Origin: Pseudanabaena sp. PCC 7367
GTDB taxonomy: Bacteria > Cyanobacteriota > Cyanobacteriia > Pseudanabaenales > Pseudanabaenaceae
NCBI RefSeq assembly: GCF_000317065.1
Contig: NC_019701.1
Location: forward strand, 310,001 to 374,000
Direction of reading: 5' to 3'
DNA length: 64,000 nucleotides
In this document: positions 5,548 through 55,150 of the stretch, in pieces
How positions within the stretch are numbered: the first letter of the stretch is position 1
Layout: each line of letters begins with the position of its first letter
Notes under the pieces: generated by a model
What the model saw: only the letters and a program-made list of their open reading frames with translations
Databases searched by the model: none
Told to the model about the DNA's origin: nothing
Program-made: the position numbers and the translations under genes

Positions 5548-5880
5548 ATGACAAAAACTATTTCGCGCCAGCAAATCAAGTCGCTTCTAGACGATCATGC
5601 TGAGCTGACTCTGGTTGAAGCATTGCCGCTTAAATATTACCGCAAGCATCATCTGCCAGGGGCAATCAATCTCCCCCACGATCAAACCCAGGAACTTGCC
5701 CCGGAATTGCTGCCGGATCATGATGCCCTGATTGTGGTTTATTGCGCTAATGGGGCTTGCACAAATTCTGGCATTGCGGCTGCAGCTTTAACTAATCTGG
5801 GCTATACCAACGTGGCCGAGTATGTGGAAGGGAAACAGGATTGGCTTGAGGCGGGTTTACCCCTTGAATCCGGTAGATAA
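5548..5880 (+). CDS. Rhodanese-like domain protein
   Basis: A single rhodanese domain (110 residues), the fold that carries persulfide sulfur or acts as a regulatory module. The predicted catalytic cysteine is C66 in VVYCANGAC, preceded by YRKHHLPGAINLPHD (the conserved H-x-PGA-x-NLP strand) and followed by the GKQDWLEAGLPLE end typical of the family. A second cysteine, C71, sits in the active loop. The start was set at ATG 5548 because GGGAG at 5535-5539 gives an eight-base spacing; a TTG at 5533 overlaps that ribosome site. The stop lies 12 bp from the convergent GUN4-like gene. Confidence 0.88.
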   Translation: MTKTISRQQIKSLLDDHAELTLVEALPLKYYRKHHLPGAINLPHDQTQELAPELLPDHDALIVVYCANGACTNSGIAAAALTNLGYTNVAEYVEGKQDWLEAGLPLESGR

Positions 5881-5892
5881 GCTAAATAAGCT

Positions 5893-6393
5893 TTAAAGCT
5901 CGCAGACAACTAGACGATTGGCGATCGCTTCCATCCAAAATCCCCCCAGCCACCAGTTATCAAATACCAAAGTACCCCACCAGGGTAGATGGCCAATTGG
6001 TGCAGCCAGGGAAAAACTAATGGTTTCATATTCCTGCCAAATGCCATTAAACCGCCAACCCAGGCGATCGCCCACCGCCATATAATCACCCGCCAGTTGT
6101 TGCCAGATCTGGCGCTGGACACTAAAGCCAAAGTGAGCATTGCTATATTTGCACCAGAGTTGATTAATTTGGCTTAAATCATGACAGGGAAACATGGTTA
6201 AATCTTTCTCGGTTAAATATTCCCGTGGCTCCAGTACCATTAATAAATTCCGCTGCACCGTTGCTAAAGCTAAATATTCTTGCTCCTGTTGCAGTGCGAT
6301 CGTTAGCATGATTTGCCAGGTAAGGCGATCGGCTTGTTGCCATTGCCCCGATTGTAATTGTTGCTCTAACGCTTCAAATGTATTTAGCTGCAT
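5893..6393 (-). CDS. GUN4 domain-containing protein
   Basis: 166 residues that are almost entirely a GUN4 domain, the porphyrin-binding fold that stimulates Mg-chelatase in chlorophyll synthesis. Matching elements are LEQQLQSGQWQQADRLTWQIML, then FPCHDLSQINQLWCKYSNAHFGFSVQRQIW, then GDRLGWR and the SFSLAAPIGHLPWWG loop. Canonical Gun4 has an extra N-terminal helical bundle (total about 230 residues), absent here, so this is a stand-alone GUN4 paralogue and tetrapyrrole binding is only inferred. The C-terminus WWLGGFWMEAIANRLVVC differs from typical Gun4. ATG start with no clear Shine-Dalgarno. Confidence 0.88.
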   Translation of the reverse strand: MQLNTFEALEQQLQSGQWQQADRLTWQIMLTIALQQEQEYLALATVQRNLLMVLEPREYLTEKDLTMFPCHDLSQINQLWCKYSNAHFGFSVQRQIWQQLAGDYMAVGDRLGWRFNGIWQEYETISFSLAAPIGHLPWWGTLVFDNWWLGGFWMEAIANRLVVCEL

Positions 6394-6793
6394 ATATTAT
6401 TTAGAGCTAGATCGTAACTTTGGGCGCTTATAGCAGCCGAGGCAATGATTAGGACGCGATTGATCTTGGCAAGCATTCTTAAAGATCCTGGCTGCAATTT
6501 ACAAGTTGTCCTAATCCAGTCTTCACTTGCTATATGCTTTTATGAGCCAAAATCACTAATCCTGACTAGAAAGTTCTTAGACAAAGAGTCTTTGCGTCAA
6601 TGGTTCCCCCAATCCGCTAAATTAATACATGCTGAGAATGTGCTCTAACAACTCAAATAAATATAGGAGCCAGAATCAATTACGATCCTAACTCCTACAT
6701 ATGCTTAATTTGATTTTCTAGCCTATAACCAGGTACTTAGATCATCAATCACATCATCTAAGCCTAAATAAAGGCATTGTGTGCTAACTAAAA
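6394..6793. other. Intergenic region between GUN4 and tkt
   Basis: A 400-bp AT-rich gap downstream of tkt and upstream of the GUN4 gene. A 67-codon plus-strand frame at 6445-6648 has no good ribosome site and no recognisable features. A loose TAGGAG/CTCCTA inverted pair lies at about 6665-6700. No supported gene. Confidence 0.4.
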
Positions 6794-8785
6794 TTAACCC
6801 AACACTTTTTTGCAAGTAGCGATCACATTTTCAACCGTGAAGCCAAACTCCTTGTAGCAAGTAGGGCCAGGAGCCGAAGCACCAAAGGTATCGATGCTAA
6901 CCGTAGCGCCTTCACTGCCCACATACTTGTGCCAGCCAAAGCTCGCCGAGGCTTCAACCGAAACCCGCTTGGTGCCAGGGGTTAGTACCGAATCACGATA
7001 TGCCTGGGGCTGCTCATCGAACAGCTTCCAGCAAGGGAGCGATACTACTCTCACCGACTTGCCTTCACCCTTGAGGCTTTCTGCCGCATTCACCGCCAAT
7101 GCTAACTCAGAGCCAGTGGCGATCAAAATTAAGTCAGGGTTAGCAGCTTCTACTACCGTATAACCACCTTTTTTGACCCCTTCTGAAGAAGTGCCAGCCA
7201 GGTTCTTCACGCCTTGACGGGTAAAGGCTAGCAAGGATGGGCGCTTACGCGATGCGATCGCCACTTCGTAGGAACCAACGGTTTCATTGGCATCGGCGGG
7301 GCGCAATACCAGCAAGTTAGGGATTGCTCGCAAGGAAGCCAGGGTTTCTACTGGTTGGTGGGTGGGACCATCTTCACCCAGCATGATCGAATCGTGGGTC
7401 ATGATGTAAATCACGCCGGTTTCAGACAAAGCCGAGAGGCGGATCGCGCCACGCATGTAGTCGGCAAATACCAAGAAGGTAGCACCATAGGGAACCAGGC
7501 CACCATGCAAGTCCATACCGTTGAGCACCGCACCCATACCATGCTCACGCACGCCAAACCGGAAATTGCGACCTGCATAGGTTCCAGCTTGGAAGTCAGG
7601 GTAGTCTTTCAATACGGTCATATTGGAGTGTGCCAGGTCAGCCGAGCCGCCCAACAAACCAGGCAATACTGGCATTAATGCATTCAAGCAATCCTGCGAT
7701 AGCAAACGGGTTGATTTTTCGTTTTGCTTGATTGGCTCCAGCGCCTTTTGCCAGCCGTCGGGCAATTCACCAGCCGTCATTTGCTTAAACTGAGCCGCTT
7801 CCGCTGGATAGGCTTTTTCATAGGCAGCAAAGCGATCGTTCCATGCGGCCTCTGCTGTAGCGCCCTTGTCGATCGCAGTTCTAAACCGCTTTAAGGCATC
7901 TTCGGGGACTTCAAATGGCTCGTACTCCCAGCCTAGATTCTTGCGCGTAGCAACCACTTCATCACCACCGAGGGCGGCACCATGCACGCCAGCAGTACCA
8001 GCCTTGCCCGGAGAACCATAACCAATAGTAGTGGTCACCACAATCAAGCTGGGCTTGTCGCTGATGGTTTTAGCCGCTTCGATCGCCTTGGCAATGCCAT
8101 CCAGGTCTTCGTTGCCTTCTTTAACATATTGCACATGCCAACCATAGGCTTCATAGCGCTTACCCACATCTTCAGTAAAGGCCAGGTCAGTGCTACCGTC
8201 GATCGAAATATGATTGTCGTCATACATCATGATCAACTTGCCTAGCTTGAGGTGGCCAGCCAGAGAAGCAGCTTCCGAGGCTACCCCTTCCATGTTGCAA
8301 CCATCACCCAAAATCACATAGGTGTAGTGATCGACAATATTATGACCGGGCTTATTGAAACGAGCAGCCAGATGCGCTTCCGCGATCGCCAAGCCCACTG
8401 CATTACCAACGCCTTGACCAAGTGGCCCAGTGGTTACCTCAACCCCAGCGGTTTCAAAGTTTTCGGGGTGGCCGGGAGTGACGCTACCCCATTGCCGGAA
8501 TTGCTTAATTTGATCGAGGGGGACACTGTCATAGCCAGTTAGATGGAGCAAGGAATATTGCAACATGCAACCATGCCCAGCGGAGAGCACAAACCGATCA
8601 CGATCGACCCATTTGGGATTCTTGGGGTTGAACTTAAGGTAGCGATCGAAAAGGGTAAAGGCCATAGGAGCAGCACCCATTGGTAAACCAGGGTGTCCGG
8701 ATTTTGCCTTCTCTACGGCATCGATCGATAAAAATCTAATTGTATTTATGCAGAGTTGTTCTAGGGTTTGGGTCGCTACAGCCAT
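6794..8785 (-). CDS. tkt: Transketolase
   Basis: Thiamine-diphosphate enzyme moving two-carbon units between sugar phosphates in the Calvin cycle and pentose phosphate pathway; cytoplasmic. Full family length (663 residues). Seen: [15 protein letters not shown] near the N-terminus, the ThDP motif [19 protein letters not shown] near 158, DDNHISIDG, the catalytic Glu region [15 protein letters not shown] near 412, [18 protein letters not shown], and the C-terminal transketolase domain [15 protein letters not shown] is preceded by an AGGTAAC ribosome site. It is a single-gene unit with a 357-bp upstream gap. Confidence 0.98.
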
Positions 8786-9142
8786 ATTTGTTACCTGAGG
8801 TTTTCTCTTAAGTTTATATTCTCACCTAAGCTTGTCCCCATTATCAAACATAATCAGAAAATCTGTCTCATTTGATGCCATAAATCCTTAATTAAGGTGA
8901 TTTGCAATCCTAAACCAGGGCGATCGGCTTGGGTTTAGCTGAAACTTAGTGGCGGCAAGCATGTGGTCATTTATTTTCCTGCTCCAGCGATCGACTGATG
9001 CCCAAAATGATTTTGAGATGATCATAAATATTCGATCGGCCTTGGCATTTATTTGATAGATTATTCTTTATCAAAGCTATGCGCCAACCATAGCCAAAAA
9101 AAGCCACGCAATCACCTTTACTCAGTCGTTTAACCAGGCACT
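8786..9142. other. Divergent promoter region of tkt and DUF751 gene
   Basis: 357 bp without an open frame of note. It should hold the promoters of tkt (minus) and the DUF751 gene (plus). No riboswitch, terminator or repeat was recognised. Confidence 0.4.
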
Positions 9143-49055: not shown

Positions 49056-49727
49056 CTATGCTTGATTAACAGCTACCGCAGGTAGATCGACATTGCAACC
49101 ACCCAAACCACAATAACCAGCCGGATTCTTGGCCAGGTATTGCTGGTGATAGTCTTCGGCATAATAGAAATCAGGTGCATCAATGATTTCAGTGGTGATC
49201 GCGCGATCGTAGCCAGCCTGATTCAGTGCCTGTTGATAGCTCTGCTGTGAAGCTAGTGCTAATTGCTTTTGAGCTTCGGTATAAACATAAATGCCCGATC
49301 GATATTGAGTGCCCGTATCGTTGCCTTGGCGCATCCCCTGGGTGGGATTATGATTCTCCCAGAAGGTCTTTAGCAATTGCTCGTAGCTAATTTGATTTGG
49401 GTCATACACCACCAACACCACTTCATTGTGGCCAGTCATGCCGGAGCATACTTCTCGGTAGGTAGGATTCGGCGTAACCCCGGCAGCATAACCAACCGCC
49501 GTAATATAAATACCGGTTTCCAGTTGCCAGAATTTACGCTCTGCACCCCAGAAGCAACCCATGCCAAACATGGCGGTTTCCATGCCATCTGGGAACGGTG
49601 GTTCAAGTGAATTACCATTGATAAAATGCTTCTCGGCGGTAGGAATTGGTGCCGATCGGCCTGGTAATGCTTCTTCGGGTTTGGGTAGACTTAATTTTTT
49701 CCCTAGACCTAATCCAAATAGTCCCAT
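49056..49727 (-). CDS. msrA: Peptide methionine sulfoxide reductase A
   Basis: 223 residues. Active-site [14 protein letters not shown], then [23 protein letters not shown] and the [13 protein letters not shown] segment are diagnostic of MsrA. GYCGLGGC near the C-terminus provides the recycling cysteines. The N-terminal about 45 residues are longer than the E. coli core and resemble the cyanobacterial MsrA form. It repairs S-methionine sulfoxide with thioredoxin. AGAGGA just upstream of ATG is a good ribosome site. Confidence 0.95.
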
Positions 49728-50197
49728 GTGTTTTTCCTCTTGGTTCTGTTTTATTTTGCTATGTTCTGTTAGTTTGATGCTGCTTATATTTTGGGGGTAA
49801 ATGAGTGCTGATTAAGCTGATTTATAGCAAGAATTACGATCGCAGTTGTGGGCTAGTTTTAATTCATTATATTTATTACGTTTATATTTATTACGTTCCA
49901 GCTTACTGATCAGATAAAAGTAATTAGGTTTGGTTAACCTGACTCCTTTGCTTTAACTGTTTAGTTCTCTGAACATGAATAAACTGTGCGATCGATACGT
50001 TGATCTTATTTGCTATTTTCAGGGAGATCGCTGTTTCTGTCATGTATCCACAGGGTAAATAATAATCACAAAAGGGCTACAAAAAAATCCACCAGGATCA
50101 ACCTGGTAGATCTATTAGTTAACTAATATTTTGCTTCACTAATTCCAGCCTTGCCCAGGAATCTCAGGGAATGCAAGGCCTAGTTAAAAATTAAAAT
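49728..50197. other. Gap between msrA and DJ-1/PfpI genes
   Basis: 470 bp holding the msrA promoter and, at 50081-50110, the terminator of the gene upstream. tttatattatttattacgttta-like duplication near 49868-49890. No other gene. Confidence 0.5.
50081..50110 (-). terminator. Rho-independent terminator of the DJ-1/PfpI gene
   Basis: On the minus strand: TCTACCAGG, loop TTGAT, CCTGGTGGA, TTTTTTT. A nine-pair stem with one G-U pair and seven T, starting 88 bases after the stop codon of the DJ-1/PfpI gene. Confidence 0.9.
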
Positions 50198-50812
50198 CTA
50201 CTTTTCAATCTCTTCAATAAACTTTTCCATAAACTCCTGGGTCACGCCGGGATGTTTGCCAGAGATGAGATCGCCATCCACCACCAGATCAGCGGTGACA
50301 TCGTTGTCATAAATCACTTCAGCGCCAGTGTTTTCCACATCCGAAATGATGTTATGGGCACAGGTCACCTTGCGGCCAGCCAACAAATCCTTATCCGCAC
50401 AGAACAGCCACAAACTATGGCAGATCGTGCCCAGTTTGAGGTCTTCTTTAGCCATTGCCTTACGCAAGAAAGCCACTGCCGGCGCATTGTTCTTTTGGCC
50501 AGGTTTTACGTTAACTTGATAGCGCAAGCGATCCATCGCATAGGCACCAATGCAGATAAAGCCAACATAGTCATCTAAGCTCACGTCATTAACTTCTTTC
50601 TCAACCGTGACATGGGCTACGTTATAGTCACCATCATCGGGATTACCACCAAATGAGAGTGAGTCTTGTCCCCACAAATGGGTAATATATTCAACTTCAT
50701 AGCCCTGTTTAGGGAAATAGTCGTTGAACATATGGAATTCGGTTTGATCGAAGTGATCTTCAATCAAAACACCGATTTTGCCTTTCTTTTCGGTTTCTGC
50801 TGCTACTAACAT
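50198..50812 (-). CDS. DJ-1/PfpI family protein
   Basis: 204 residues. The DJ-1/PfpI nucleophile elbow is GTICHSLWLF with C131-H132, and the conserved acid E18 sits in GVLIEDHFDQTEF; PDDGDYNVAHVTVEKEVND and RKVTCAHNIISDVENTGAEVIYDNDV, then GDLISGKHPGVTQEFMEKFI complete the fold. Members include deglycases, glyoxalase III and amidases. The Glu-Cys-His set is intact so catalysis is likely, substrate unknown. Last gene of a minus-strand run EthD, CMD, NTF2-like, DJ-1, followed by a strong terminator. Confidence 0.9.
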   Translation of the reverse strand: MLVAAETEKKGKIGVLIEDHFDQTEFHMFNDYFPKQGYEVEYITHLWGQDSLSFGGNPDDGDYNVAHVTVEKEVNDVSLDDYVGFICIGAYAMDRLRYQVNVKPGQKNNAPAVAFLRKAMAKEDLKLGTICHSLWLFCADKDLLAGRKVTCAHNIISDVENTGAEVIYDNDVTADLVVDGDLISGKHPGVTQEFMEKFIEEIEK

Positions 50813-51168
50813 GGGTTAATTTCAATGGGGTGGAATCAGGTTTACAAGTTCGCCTAGTAATTTTTTATCAAGGTACTATGCCCGGTTGCTCTAATATCAA
50901 GTCCTATTGAATACCTGCACTAAAAATGATTGGGATCTTTATGCCTATTAGTTGACATCTGCGGGCGATCCAGAGGATTTGATCTAACTATTCGAGGTTT
51001 GTGGTTTGTACCAAGGCGATCGCTATTTCTTGCCAATGCGATTTCTAGAATCTGCACTAGGGCTATATTGATTGGTCTTGATTACTGGATCATGATAACT
51101 AGCTGAGCCAGACATAATAACTGGCAGAGCTAGCGATTAGTAGTTAATGATTGAAGCTGAAGCTAAAT
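50813..51168. other. Gap between NTF2-like and DJ-1/PfpI genes
   Basis: 356 bp of AT-rich sequence with the probable DJ-1 promoter. No gene, repeat or terminator recognised. Confidence 0.4.
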
Positions 51169-51738
51169 CTAAGTGGTGATTAGTTTTAATAGCTCTGGCG
51201 AGGCAAACACATCACGATAGAAGGTAAGCTGTTCACTCTTGTAGTAGCAAGCGCCACGATGGCCACGACGCACCCAGGAAACCGTACCCTTGGCAAGCGC
51301 TTCGTTGGTTTCATCATCCACGCAATACCATTCAAAATGCACAAACTCTGACCAGAACATCACGATCGGCCAGCACATCGTCACATTCGGCTGAGCAATC
51401 AATGCCCACCAGTGCTGCTCCCGTTCTTTTTGTTCATCCAGGCCATAATATGGGCCGTCTTGACAGAAATAAACCAGGTCACTGCGATACTCTCCGGTTA
51501 GCAAATCGCCCCGACCCTGGCGCAGGGCTTCGCAATGGGTTGGCCACCAGTCTTTATTTTCCTTCTCGATCTGCTCGGCGGTATAACTAGCATCGATCGC
51601 TGGCAAGGTATCTTCCTTCAGGGCAATATACTTGGCCGCATCTTCGAGTAACTTGGCTTTCATTTGATCCGAGACCAGGCCAGGTCTGGAATAATCAGCG
51701 CTCAGGTCTTTATAGTAGCTAGTTCTCTTCTTTACCAT
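51169..51738 (-). CDS. NTF2/SnoaL-like fold protein (tentative)
   Basis: 189 residues with no signal peptide: KLLEDAAKYIALKEDT..DAS, GRGDLLTGEYRSDLVYFCQDGPYYGLDEQKE, NVTMCWPIVMFWSEFVHFEWYCVDDETNEALAKGTVSWVRRGHRGACYYKSEQLTFYRDVF resembles the helical start plus curved sheet of the NTF2/SnoaL fold, with a helix-rich opening, an ether of aromatic strands and a WVRRGHRG turn. I recognise the fold only loosely and no catalytic residue can be named. Same strand as the CMD and EthD genes, 381 bp after CMD. GGAGAAAACGC precedes ATG. Confidence 0.6.
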   Translation of the reverse strand: MVKKRTSYYKDLSADYSRPGLVSDQMKAKLLEDAAKYIALKEDTLPAIDASYTAEQIEKENKDWWPTHCEALRQGRGDLLTGEYRSDLVYFCQDGPYYGLDEQKEREQHWWALIAQPNVTMCWPIVMFWSEFVHFEWYCVDDETNEALAKGTVSWVRRGHRGACYYKSEQLTFYRDVFASPELLKLITT

Positions 51739-52119
51739 TGCGTTTTCTCCTTGTTTGGAATCAGAAATAGAATCAGAAAGATGTTTGCGATCGCCCCTAA
51801 ATCTTAATTGCCAGCTTGCAAATTAATCGCATCCAGGCATTATTAATTAACGAACCTAATAAATTAAACTAGCTCATCATTAGTTCATACCTGCTGGAAG
51901 TAGTTTAGTTAATGCCTTTCTGTTCGCACCTTGACATCGCAGCACTAATAGATCGGCACTAAAGTTGAAGTCAGGACAGAAATAGAGTACCAGTCTTATC
52001 TTGCTCACTTAATTGATCACTCGTTATTGCGGCATCTTTACCACAGACCTGCTTAGATCTGGAAGTTAGATATTAGTCAGCAGCCAGAACAAACTAATAA
52101 GCTTAAGAAGCTAGCCCAA
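51739..52119. other. Gap between CMD and NTF2-like genes
   Basis: 381 bp, AT-rich, no gene or terminator recognised. Probable promoter region of the NTF2-like gene. Confidence 0.4.
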
Positions 52120-52839
52120 CTATTGCAAGTCACTATCTTGAAGTGATTGCAGTTTGGCAAAGAAGCTAACTCCCTTGTTAAACCCAGCATATACACAGGT
52201 AAAGGTAATCACTTCCTTGATCTCAGCTCTGGTGGCACCATTTTGGCTGGCAATTTTGACATGGGCAATAAATGGATCAACTTCACCAGCGGCTTTATCC
52301 TGGTGGGCAATGTCGATCGCAATCGCAATTAGTGCCTTGTCCTTCACACTAATGATCGGCAAACCCCAAACCTGCACTGCCAAGCGATAGAACAAGCTAC
52401 CAAATTCGCTATCCAGCTTAGCTAGATCTTCTTTGATGCCTGTACTCTCTAGCACCTTGGGATCGTAGTCCAGGGCTCCATCCGGCAGTTTCTCTGGGGC
52501 TGGCCCCAAAATCTCGTTCAGAGCGCCAAAGGAGCCGGCTGCTTTATTGAACCCAGCATAGATACAGGTAAACAGCAGCACCTCTTCGATCTCATCGCGG
52601 CTAGAACCCTGCATCATTGCCATATTCACATGGGCACCATAGGGATTACCGGGACCGACTTGATCCTGGTTCACCACATCAATGGCGATCGTAATCAGGG
52701 CTTTCAGTTTCTGGTTGATTAGCGGCAAGCCCCAGACTTCTCCAGCGGCACGCGTACAAAAATCCCCAAATTTGGGATTGATGCCACTTAAGCCAGCCTG
52801 GAGGTCAAGATCATCTAGAACTGCATTTTCGTAAGGCAT
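52120..52839 (-). CDS. Double carboxymuconolactone decarboxylase-domain protein
   Basis: 239 residues made of two CMD/AhpD-like domains in tandem (about 20-115 and 140-232). They mirror each other: GEVWGLPLINQKLKALITIAIDVV / VQVWGLPIISVKDKALIAIAIDIA and EIEEVLLFTCIYAGFNKAAGSF / EIKEVITFTCVYAGFNKGVSFF. Each has one Cys in TC(I/V)YAGFNK; the CxxC of AhpD peroxidases is absent, so peroxidase activity is unlikely. A decarboxylase or isomerase-like role is possible. The gene starts 27 bp after the EthD gene and is probably in its operon. Confidence 0.9.
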   Translation of the reverse strand: MPYENAVLDDLDLQAGLSGINPKFGDFCTRAAGEVWGLPLINQKLKALITIAIDVVNQDQVGPGNPYGAHVNMAMMQGSSRDEIEEVLLFTCIYAGFNKAAGSFGALNEILGPAPEKLPDGALDYDPKVLESTGIKEDLAKLDSEFGSLFYRLAVQVWGLPIISVKDKALIAIAIDIAHQDKAAGEVDPFIAHVKIASQNGATRAEIKEVITFTCVYAGFNKGVSFFAKLQSLQDSDLQ

Positions 52840-52865
52840 TTTGCACTCCTACTAAAACCTATTGT

Positions 52866-53804
52866 TTATCGCCCTGCTTTACCAATCATCAGATCCATCA
52901 CATCTTCTTCGAGCTGGTTGATCGCGCCGATGCTGCTGATCAATCCTGCTACCGTCGAACTGCGCTTGCCAGAAAGCGTCATTTGGCCATCGTAGACGAA
53001 GGTGTAGGTACTCCGATTGGGGAAAGTGTAAAAATCCTTGATGTATTTTGCTTGATCTTGACAGGCATTGGAATAGCTTGGGCAATATTTGAAGAAGTTT
53101 TCCATATTCAGTTTATCTTCAAAGCAAATTTCGATCGCCGCTTGATAGTTCAGCTCCGCATCCTCGCCATGGGCAACCCCAGCGGCGGGTGGGCGGGTAT
53201 TATCTACTTCCTCAAACAGATGCAAGCGCAGTTTCAAGATGTAAGGACTTTTGGCTATTTCGGCGGCATAGTCTTTAGATAGGAACTTACGGAAATCCTC
53301 AACGCTGACATCGTCTTTTTTGCGGATCATTACCAACAACTTGGTCAAAGAGGCGAGCGCCTTGCCATTCGGTTGACCGTTGACAATCCCATCGCAGTAG
53401 GTAATCGAATTGCCGGGGTTGGTGTTATAGCCGATCGCCTTGCTGAAAATATTATGCTCATCATCCATCAAGATCGCCGCTGCCTTAAACCAGATATTCC
53501 GATCTTCTGCTGACTTAAAAGTAAGCTCGGCAATGCCATCAAATTGCTCCTCGGGGGTTGAAACCGAATTAATCCCATCGGTCTCTGGCCAAATCCCACC
53601 CTCATTGTGGGCAACGTGGTATTGCCAATATTGATATTGACCGGGCAACCTGGCACAAACTGGGCCATGCACATCCCGCCAATAATCATCGAACATTTCC
53701 AGGGTGATGCCTTTGCGCTTCCACAGCAAAACATAAAAGGCAACTTCCCCTTCCTGATCTCTGGCTGAAAAATCAACTCTGGTGTTGGCAGCTTCGCTAG
53801 ACAT
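52866..53804 (-). CDS. EthD domain protein
   Basis: About 312 residues formed of two dimeric alpha-beta barrel halves. The first carries VLLWKRKGITLEMFDDYWRDVHGPVCARLPG, the EthD signature (YW...HGP), and the second VMIRKKDDVSVEDFRKFLSKDYAAEIAKSP is a diverged copy without HGP. EthD-like proteins are found with polyketide or ether-degradation genes and often modify aromatic rings. ATG at 53804 preferred; a longer TTG frame reaches 53855. First gene of the minus-strand group that continues with the CMD gene 26 bp on. Confidence 0.85.
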   Translation of the reverse strand: MSSEAANTRVDFSARDQEGEVAFYVLLWKRKGITLEMFDDYWRDVHGPVCARLPGQYQYWQYHVAHNEGGIWPETDGINSVSTPEEQFDGIAELTFKSAEDRNIWFKAAAILMDDEHNIFSKAIGYNTNPGNSITYCDGIVNGQPNGKALASLTKLLVMIRKKDDVSVEDFRKFLSKDYAAEIAKSPYILKLRLHLFEEVDNTRPPAAGVAHGEDAELNYQAAIEICFEDKLNMENFFKYCPSYSNACQDQAKYIKDFYTFPNRSTYTFVYDGQMTLSGKRSSTVAGLISSIGAINQLEEDVMDLMIGKAGR

Positions 53805-54082: not shown

Positions 54083-55150
54083 TTATGTATCAGGATAAGC
54101 AATGCTATGGGCATGCAGATATTCAGGATTCACGCCCGCCTTAAGCGCTGCCACTGCACCGATCGCCTCCAGGTAACTAGCCACCACGATCCCCTTTAGC
54201 GCCAAACTTTCTGGCGGTACTTGTAAGACGGTGCTATTTTCGCGCACAAAGATCAATCGTGGTTGATGGGTTGCCATTGCCAGTGCCAACAAAGCCGGAC
54301 TACCACAGGCATCATAGGGGGCGATCGCCACATCAATATCCTCCGCCCACAGATCGCCTGTGGCAGCATGATTAGTTCTGGTAATAATTTGCGGCGCACG
54401 GCTCAACCCAGCCAACACACAGGGCAAAAATGTATAGCCCAACTCTTCCGCTGCCGATCGCGCGCAGACAGTTGGATCAAGCGGCAGAGGTAGCAACGCT
54501 GGGGCATGGGCACAGGGTAATTGCAATTCCCGACTGATCAAATGGGAGATCACCGCTTCCGCACCTGCCAGCGCATCCACCCCCTGCCCCTGGCGATATT
54601 GCTGGAGCATTTCATTCTGCATATCATCGGGGAACCTGGCCACCACCGCGATCGCCTCGGCGCGAAATTGTTTAATTAATAATTCTGCGGCTCGTAACAG
54701 TGCATCGGGATTGGCGATCGTGCCCCAGCTTATGCCAGATTCCCCCTGCCTTAGCTCTATGCCTAAATCTTGATCGGTAGTAATAACGCCACTAATATCA
54801 ATGCCCAGCGTGGCCTTGGCCGCATCGATTACTTGCCGATGCCGCAGAGCCAAATCCGGTTCGATCGCCCGATCCAAAACCACCCCCAGACGATTAAAAT
54901 GCCGGGGACGCAACCCCCAATTGCCGATCGCCACTTGATCGAGGGCAAAGCCTTCCACATACCACACATTGGCTAGCGGCCAATAAAGGCTAGCACCATT
55001 GAGGACATTGGGATGGGTGATGAGATTATCTGCCACTGCTGCCAGGGCACGAGCCACCGGCAACGCATCCCCCGCATACCCACCGATCGCGGCACCGATG
55101 CCAGTGGGGACAATCAATAATACATTCAAAGATTTATGAGGTATTTGCAC
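54083..55150 (-). CDS. DUF3326 domain-containing protein
   Basis: 355 residues, a conserved cyanobacterial family without known function: LIVPTGIGAAIGGYAGDALPVARALA at the start, NGASLYWPLANVWYVEGFALDQVAIG, VVARFPDD and CARSAAEELGYTFLPCVLAGLSRAPQII are recognised blocks. GIGA-x-I-GGYAGDA resembles a nucleotide or sugar-phosphate loop but no reaction is assigned. It reads away from the EthD gene on the same strand, 278 bp apart. Confidence 0.85.
   Translation of the reverse strand: MQIPHKSLNVLLIVPTGIGAAIGGYAGDALPVARALAAVADNLITHPNVLNGASLYWPLANVWYVEGFALDQVAIGNWGLRPRHFNRLGVVLDRAIEPDLALRHRQVIDAAKATLGIDISGVITTDQDLGIELRQGESGISWGTIANPDALLRAAELLIKQFRAEAIAVVARFPDDMQNEMLQQYRQGQGVDALAGAEAVISHLISRELQLPCAHAPALLPLPLDPTVCARSAAEELGYTFLPCVLAGLSRAPQIITRTNHAATGDLWAEDIDVAIAPYDACGSPALLALAMATHQPRLIFVRENSTVLQVPPESLALKGIVVASYLEAIGAVAALKAGVNPEYLHAHSIAYPDT

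Follow-up and report, generated by a model that had tools for sequence, protein, structure and literature searches.

The question raised by this locus is whether four neighbouring genes that encode small enzymes of different families form one functional unit and, if so, to what larger system that unit belongs. The window analysed here, a stretch of 64,000 nt from Pseudanabaena sp. PCC 7367 (NC_019701.1, positions 310,001-374,000; coordinates below are window positions unless a contig or locus is named), carries four intact open reading frames, all on the minus strand. In order they encode an EthD protein (312 aa, 52866-53804), a double carboxymuconolactone-decarboxylase-like (CMD) protein (239 aa, 52120-52839), a protein of the NTF2/SnoaL fold, here called NTF2-like (189 aa, 51169-51738), and a DJ-1/PfpI-family protein, here called DJ-1 (204 aa, 50198-50812). 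A first-pass annotation, made from the letters of the sequence, had proposed this group as an undescribed small-molecule system. We find that the four genes do belong together and that they are not self-contained: they are very probably the detached head of a gene cluster of the known icfG type, whose other half lies elsewhere in the same genome.

Conservation of the four-gene module

The distribution of relatives was surveyed in 194 cyanobacterial genomes, that of PCC 7367 included. NTF2-like relatives occur in 11 of them, always at 57% identity or more, and DJ-1 relatives of at least 57% identity are found in the identical 11 genomes, the next best match being at 38%. CMD relatives of at least 66% identity are present in 10 of these 11 genomes, strong EthD relatives in five genomes, all within the set of 11, and the AGE gene discussed below in 14 genomes, including all 11. 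The match between the NTF2-like and DJ-1 genome sets would have a chance probability of 4e-18 if genomes were independent, an assumption that their kinship violates.

Gene neighbourhoods were compared in 68 loci, and because these were retrieved through the NTF2-like sequence only, the neighbouring genes provide an independent test; loci and genomes are mutually related, so that the counts are not independent trials. DJ-1 recurs in 55 of the 68 loci, AGE in 48, CMD in 46, GlgX in 39 and EthD in 38, and each of the 14 other window genes, from the flanks of the group, is present in one locus at most. The NTF2-like gene lies together with at least two of EthD, CMD and DJ-1 inside 5 kb on one strand in 46/64 loci. 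In a genome of the same family (G196) the order EthD-CMD-NTF2-DJ-1 is kept between different flanks, and an unrelated 394-aa gene occupies the position of the CMD/NTF2 gap. The first-pass annotation had set in advance the test that the families should be neighbours in other cyanobacteria; the co-occurrence, the neighbourhood counts and the order in G196 all pass it, and the grouping is therefore not due to chance.

Moreover, the families are joined in single chains. Among the 68 loci, 22 encode an EthD-NTF2 fusion of 515 aa, 15 a CMD-EthD-GLX-SnoaL fusion of about 1050-1190 aa, in which GLX is a glyoxalase-fold domain (for example L049 and L053), nine an AGE-STAS fusion and one a DJ-1-AGE fusion. 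As far as comparison of sequences can tell, recurrence both as neighbours and as fusions shows that EthD, CMD, NTF2/SnoaL-fold and DJ-1 proteins are one module.

Some loci depart from this arrangement in their companions. In a Nostocacean variant (L063, L065, L068) a distant AGE (36%) and a second DJ-1 (31-33%) stand around EthD-CMD-NTF2-DJ-1, together with a distant GlgX-like protein (26-27%, about 820-840 aa); thus the same enzyme classes recur by way of different paralogues. Large secreted-looking proteins lie beside the cluster in L021, L022, L033, L034, L049, L085 and L148; they are multicopper oxidases with FG-GAP and DUF4114 domains and cupin-CHRD-RTX proteins, and are possibly cell-surface polysaccharide partners.

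A probable icfG-type cluster divided between two loci

After the set, many loci go on to encode an AGE-type sugar epimerase of about 606 aa, a STAS protein, the glycogen-debranching enzyme GlgX, a second STAS protein, a PP2C phosphatase of the IcfG type and a kinase of the RsbW type. Synechocystis salina (L073) has the arrangement NTF2-CMD-DJ-1-AGE-STAS-GlgX-STAS-PP2C-RsbW, with an ABM-type gene diverging from it, and this agrees gene for gene with the published slr1852-slr1862 plus sll1783 of Synechocystis PCC 6803. It follows from this position, by way of S. salina and not from comparison with the PCC 6803 sequence, that slr1852 should be a member of the NTF2-like family; slr1853 is a CMD (PMC3564720), and the DJ-1 of the window is of the slr1854 type. 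The PCC 6803 cluster includes Slr1855 (epimerase), Slr1856 (STAS), GlgX and IcfG, and it is repressed by salt (PMC8670252). Slr1859, IcfG and Slr1861 constitute a switch network acting on SigC; the cluster has been linked to carbon sensing, to growth on carbon/glucose and to the control of growth, the last through SigC (PMC12329169). The gene sll1783 is divergent from slr1852 (PMC5341163) and encodes the neighbouring ABM protein Sll1783, whose deletion leads to more exopolysaccharide (PMC7690835).

In PCC 7367 the remainder of this cluster is located about 3.96 Mb from the window group along contig C2 (L129, G000:C2:4313000-4332500). There, the AGE gene (C2:4323404-4325212) is followed in line by STAS, GlgX, STAS and RsbW, and the opposite strand carries a glyoxalase-superfamily gene and four tandem SnoaL_2 genes (5826-9016 of that locus), divergent from the AGE-led genes over a 1385-bp intergenic region. 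Since other genomes fuse their domains in one chain, the window and this second locus jointly hold parts of one system.

The likeness to slr1852-slr1862 thus consists in co-directional, adjacent NTF2-like, CMD and DJ-1 genes in the window and in AGE, two STAS, GlgX and RsbW encoded in the genome. In contrast to Synechocystis, PCC 7367 has two loci instead of a single contiguous cluster, an EthD gene has been added in front, CMD has two domains and comes before NTF2, the IcfG phosphatase gene is absent from either locus, and the four SnoaL genes and the glyoxalase-fold gene are extra, opposite AGE. Because the loci are separate, we file the system as a split variant and not as an icfG operon. 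A separation of the NTF2-CMD part from the DJ-1-AGE part is also found in two other genomes (G145, G187). The sll1783 operon, whose ABM-type protein has a link to polysaccharide processing, resembles the system in adjoining the same cluster, and ABM and EthD proteins have the dimeric alpha+beta barrel fold in common; it differs in that no ABM, ketose-epimerase-like or DctP gene was seen at either PCC 7367 locus.

The AGE protein carries a GHN motif that aligns with that of solved epimerases, while the residue pattern that follows differs (GHNLK), and its epimerase activity is a prediction. In G187 (L131, 7287-11392) the AGE gene is interrupted by about 2.2 kb with two open reading frames (202 and 519 aa), which looks like the insertion of a mobile element.

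Spread beyond cyanobacteria

Relatives are present in at least eight non-cyanobacterial phyla: NTF2-like relatives of 63-80% identity were found in Nitrospirota, Acidobacteriota, Bacillota, Pseudomonadota, Thermodesulfobacteriota, Ignavibacteriota, Armatimonadota and candidate division FCPU426. Most of them come from metagenome bins, in which contigs may be misassigned; the Bacillota relative comes from an isolate, Paenibacillus agilis. In the tree, the window protein, a small number of cyanobacteria and most non-cyanobacterial relatives share a supported clade, which is nested within cyanobacterial diversity. Five plasmids carry NTF2-like relatives. On plasmid unnamed1 of Gloeocapsopsis dulcis (L149) they belong to a compact GlgX-AGE-NTF2-CMD-DJ-1-SDR cassette flanked by transposases, with a toxin-antitoxin pair nearby, and the copy on a Gloeothece plasmid is near hpaB and a tryptophan halogenase. 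Horizontal transfer is the likely explanation.

Eight loci (L039, L041, L047, L071, L089, L090, L096, L097) encode an AGE-STAS fusion of about 710-740 aa, and the GlgX found there is more distant (about 47%). These constitute a second cluster subtype, frequent among the non-cyanobacterial loci, and the fusion suggests that the AGE epimerase itself may be under STAS partner control. A family of about 178-181 aa adjoins NTF2 and DJ-1 in the non-cyanobacterial loci L066, L069, L090 and L097; the one member checked (L069) has no Pfam match.

The four proteins

The family assignments of the first-pass annotation are borne out by Pfam for three of the proteins and by the fold of an AlphaFold model for the NTF2-like protein. 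EthD scores 54.6 bits against PF07110 (gathering cut-off 22) and 27.9 bits against the EthD family reductase model TIGR02118, which is below the curated cut-off of 30.5 bits. Its AlphaFold model (pLDDT 85.5) predicts two ferredoxin-like domains in tandem, forming an alpha+beta barrel pseudo-dimer, and in an alignment of 46 relatives the N-terminal domain retains the invariant motif Y41-W42-x2-V45-H46-G47-P48-x-C50. No sequence-related solved structure was found for EthD. The solved folds nearest to the model include 3mcs, an uncharacterised putative monooxygenase, and the anthrone-oxidase-like 5f9p (Z 15.3 each); the monooxygenase PenE (9kdp) is also near (Z 13.9) and a likeness to 4-methylmuconolactone methylisomerase (Z 11.4) is seen in the second half, all of these being matches of fold only.

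The double CMD protein matches PF02627 with 75 bits and, in a phmmer search, the tandem CMD 4g9q (E 1.2e-10); its relatives are mostly single-domain proteins of about 115 aa. As the first-pass annotation had remarked, it lacks the CxxC of AhpD-type peroxidases, because its cysteines are only C28, C92 and C215. It shares with the gamma-carboxymuconolactone decarboxylase PcaC the CMD fold, in tandem as in 4g9q, and the absence of CxxC, but it scores 76.8 bits against the PcaC equivalog TIGR02425 (4-carboxymuconolactone decarboxylase), well under the cut-off of 155.7 bits.

The NTF2-like protein matches neither Pfam models (E 0.1), those of SnoaL included, nor NCBIfam models, and no sequence-related solved structure was found for it. 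Its AlphaFold model (pLDDT 88.6) predicts a cone-shaped alpha+beta fold of the SnoaL/NTF2 type over residues 51-174, which superposes on 7e85 with Z 12.3 and an rmsd of 2.9 over 113 residues. The likeness to SnoaL/ketosteroid-isomerase fold enzymes (Z about 11-12) is thus one of fold; the protein differs from them in having no detectable sequence membership, an N-terminal helical extension and its own invariant Trp/His/Arg/Asp set, and about 50 positions are invariant across 51 sequences. DJ-1 belongs to the superfamily PF01965 (60 bits, cut-off 26.6). Its residues E25, C131 and H132 are conserved in at least 97% of 62 relatives and the Cys-His dyad lines up with that of YhbO (1oi4), but its score against the PfpI/YhbO deglycase subfamily TIGR01382 (75.1 bits) does not reach the curated cut-off of 139.05 bits.

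Organization of the locus

EthD starts at ATG 53804, in a frame that stays open up to TTG 53855. The gaps between the genes measure 26 bp (EthD/CMD, 52840-52865), 381 bp (CMD/NTF2-like, 51739-52119) and 356 bp (NTF2-like/DJ-1, 50813-51168), in agreement with the distances first annotated. EthD and CMD are probably co-transcribed, since their short gap contains an AGGAG ribosome-binding site. The terminator annotated after DJ-1 was also recovered, as a hairpin with a T tail on the minus strand (50113-50085; 12 pairs, 5 of them G-C) 84 bp 3' of the DJ-1 stop codon; it is the best among five terminator-like sites, which as a class are not commoner than in shuffled sequence (3.9 +/- 1.9).

The long gaps had been taken as a sign of separate promoters within one regulon, a suggestion that found no support. 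A scan for sigma-70-like promoters found none on the minus strand in the three upstream gaps; the closest one falls inside the terminal (3') part of the CMD gene, and such sites are fewer here than in shuffles of the region. An Rfam search found no structured RNA in the gaps. No convincing motif is conserved between the upstream regions and those of G196, and a motif common to three upstream regions proved to be just GCGATCGCC, which contains HIP1 and was rejected as a regulatory motif. HIP1 is a repeat that is widespread throughout cyanobacterial genomes.

Two adjoining genes were considered as further members of the cluster and discarded: MsrA (49056-49727) recurs in 1/68 loci, and the DUF3326 protein directly upstream of the group (54083-55150; PF11805, 534 bits, a function-unassigned family) in 0/68.

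Proposed function and alternative explanations

We favour, with moderate confidence, the explanation that the detached icfG-type head encodes a cofactor-free module whose target is a metabolite derived from carbohydrate and which is controlled by carbon status. The EthD, CMD, NTF2, GLX and SnoaL folds would act jointly, probably as one assembly because relatives fuse these domains into chains of 515 aa and about 1100 aa. As its substrate the assembly would take a reactive compound of carbohydrate origin (of keto, enediol or lactone type) and either rearrange it or open it. The sugar would be provided or recycled by GlgX and AGE, dicarbonyls formed on the side would be removed by DJ-1, and coupling to carbon status would fall to the STAS/RsbW switch. 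The link to carbohydrate is, on balance, probable. The specific sequence of reactions is tentative and rather unlikely to be right as it stands.

Several points weigh against this explanation. None of the four proteins has a known reaction or substrate, and given the catalytic promiscuity of the EthD, CMD and SnoaL folds, fold tells little about substrate. No IcfG phosphatase gene lies at the window locus or at the AGE locus, the closest PP2C-domain matches elsewhere in the genome being at C2:92962 (50%) and C2:3226249 (46%), and a regulatory motif common to the two loci was not found. Moreover, partial sets exist, as L024 and L025 carry CMD-NTF2 with no AGE nearby and the Synechocystis cluster has no EthD; the module can therefore sometimes do without a member or without physical linkage.

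A general set for stress and detoxification, in which the four proteins would remove xenobiotics and reactive carbonyls and would be tied to glycogen genes by nothing more than a common induction under stress, is the less likely account, although not a far-fetched one. In fact, ethanol raises the transcripts of slr1853 and slr1854 (PMC3564720) and butanol that of slr1854 (PMC3726282), DJ-1 retains E25, C131 and H132, and MsrA adjoins the group; but MsrA is outside the conserved cluster, salt represses rather than induces the Synechocystis operon (PMC8670252), and the fusion of CMD, EthD, NTF2 and SnoaL to one another is better explained by a defined pathway than by detoxifiers working in parallel. 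The first-pass annotation had pointed instead to aromatic or polyketide ring chemistry. As tailoring of natural products, with EthD as an anthrone-oxidase-like oxygenase, a SnoaL cyclase and a CMD decarboxylase, this would agree with the fold matches of EthD to 3mcs, 5f9p and PenE, with the frequency of SnoaL and CMD folds in such pathways and with the neighbours of the Gloeothece plasmid copy. However, among the annotated families common to many loci, annotation covering part of the shared families, no gene for a polyketide synthase or an aromatic precursor was recognised and GlgX and AGE were, a context that favours carbohydrate or polysaccharide metabolism and makes tailoring improbable. 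It is more improbable still that the genes are chance neighbours or decaying remnants of a broken cluster that no longer cooperate in this genome: the split, the long gaps and the phosphatase missing beside both loci would suit decay, but the four reading frames are intact with conserved residues, G196 keeps the order despite different flanks, and the expected partner enzymes are still encoded elsewhere in the genome.

Implications

The icfG operon is already known, and the enzyme module at its head is strongly evidenced, yet undiscussed in the literature that we found. That literature leaves the roles of the operon's first genes, slr1852-slr1855, unexplained and describes neither the EthD branch and the fusions nor the split and the spread; a search for publications combining three or more of EthD, carboxymuconolactone decarboxylase, cyanobacteria and SnoaL returned none. 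The fusions and the EthD branch show which proteins cooperate and in which combinations, and the spread to at least eight non-cyanobacterial phyla and to plasmids implies that the enzyme part is of use even in the absence of photosynthesis. A speculative and quite doubtful extension would see the CMD, EthD, NTF2/SnoaL-fold and glyoxalase-fold proteins as a multi-enzyme assembly, cofactor-free and mobile between genomes by horizontal transfer, whose product or substrate is a small molecule derived from carbohydrate; the STAS/RsbW (icfG) partner switch would read this molecule as its signal of carbon status, or as a brake. The hypothetical proteins in front of icfG become, with the carbohydrate-linked module favoured here, one testable pathway.

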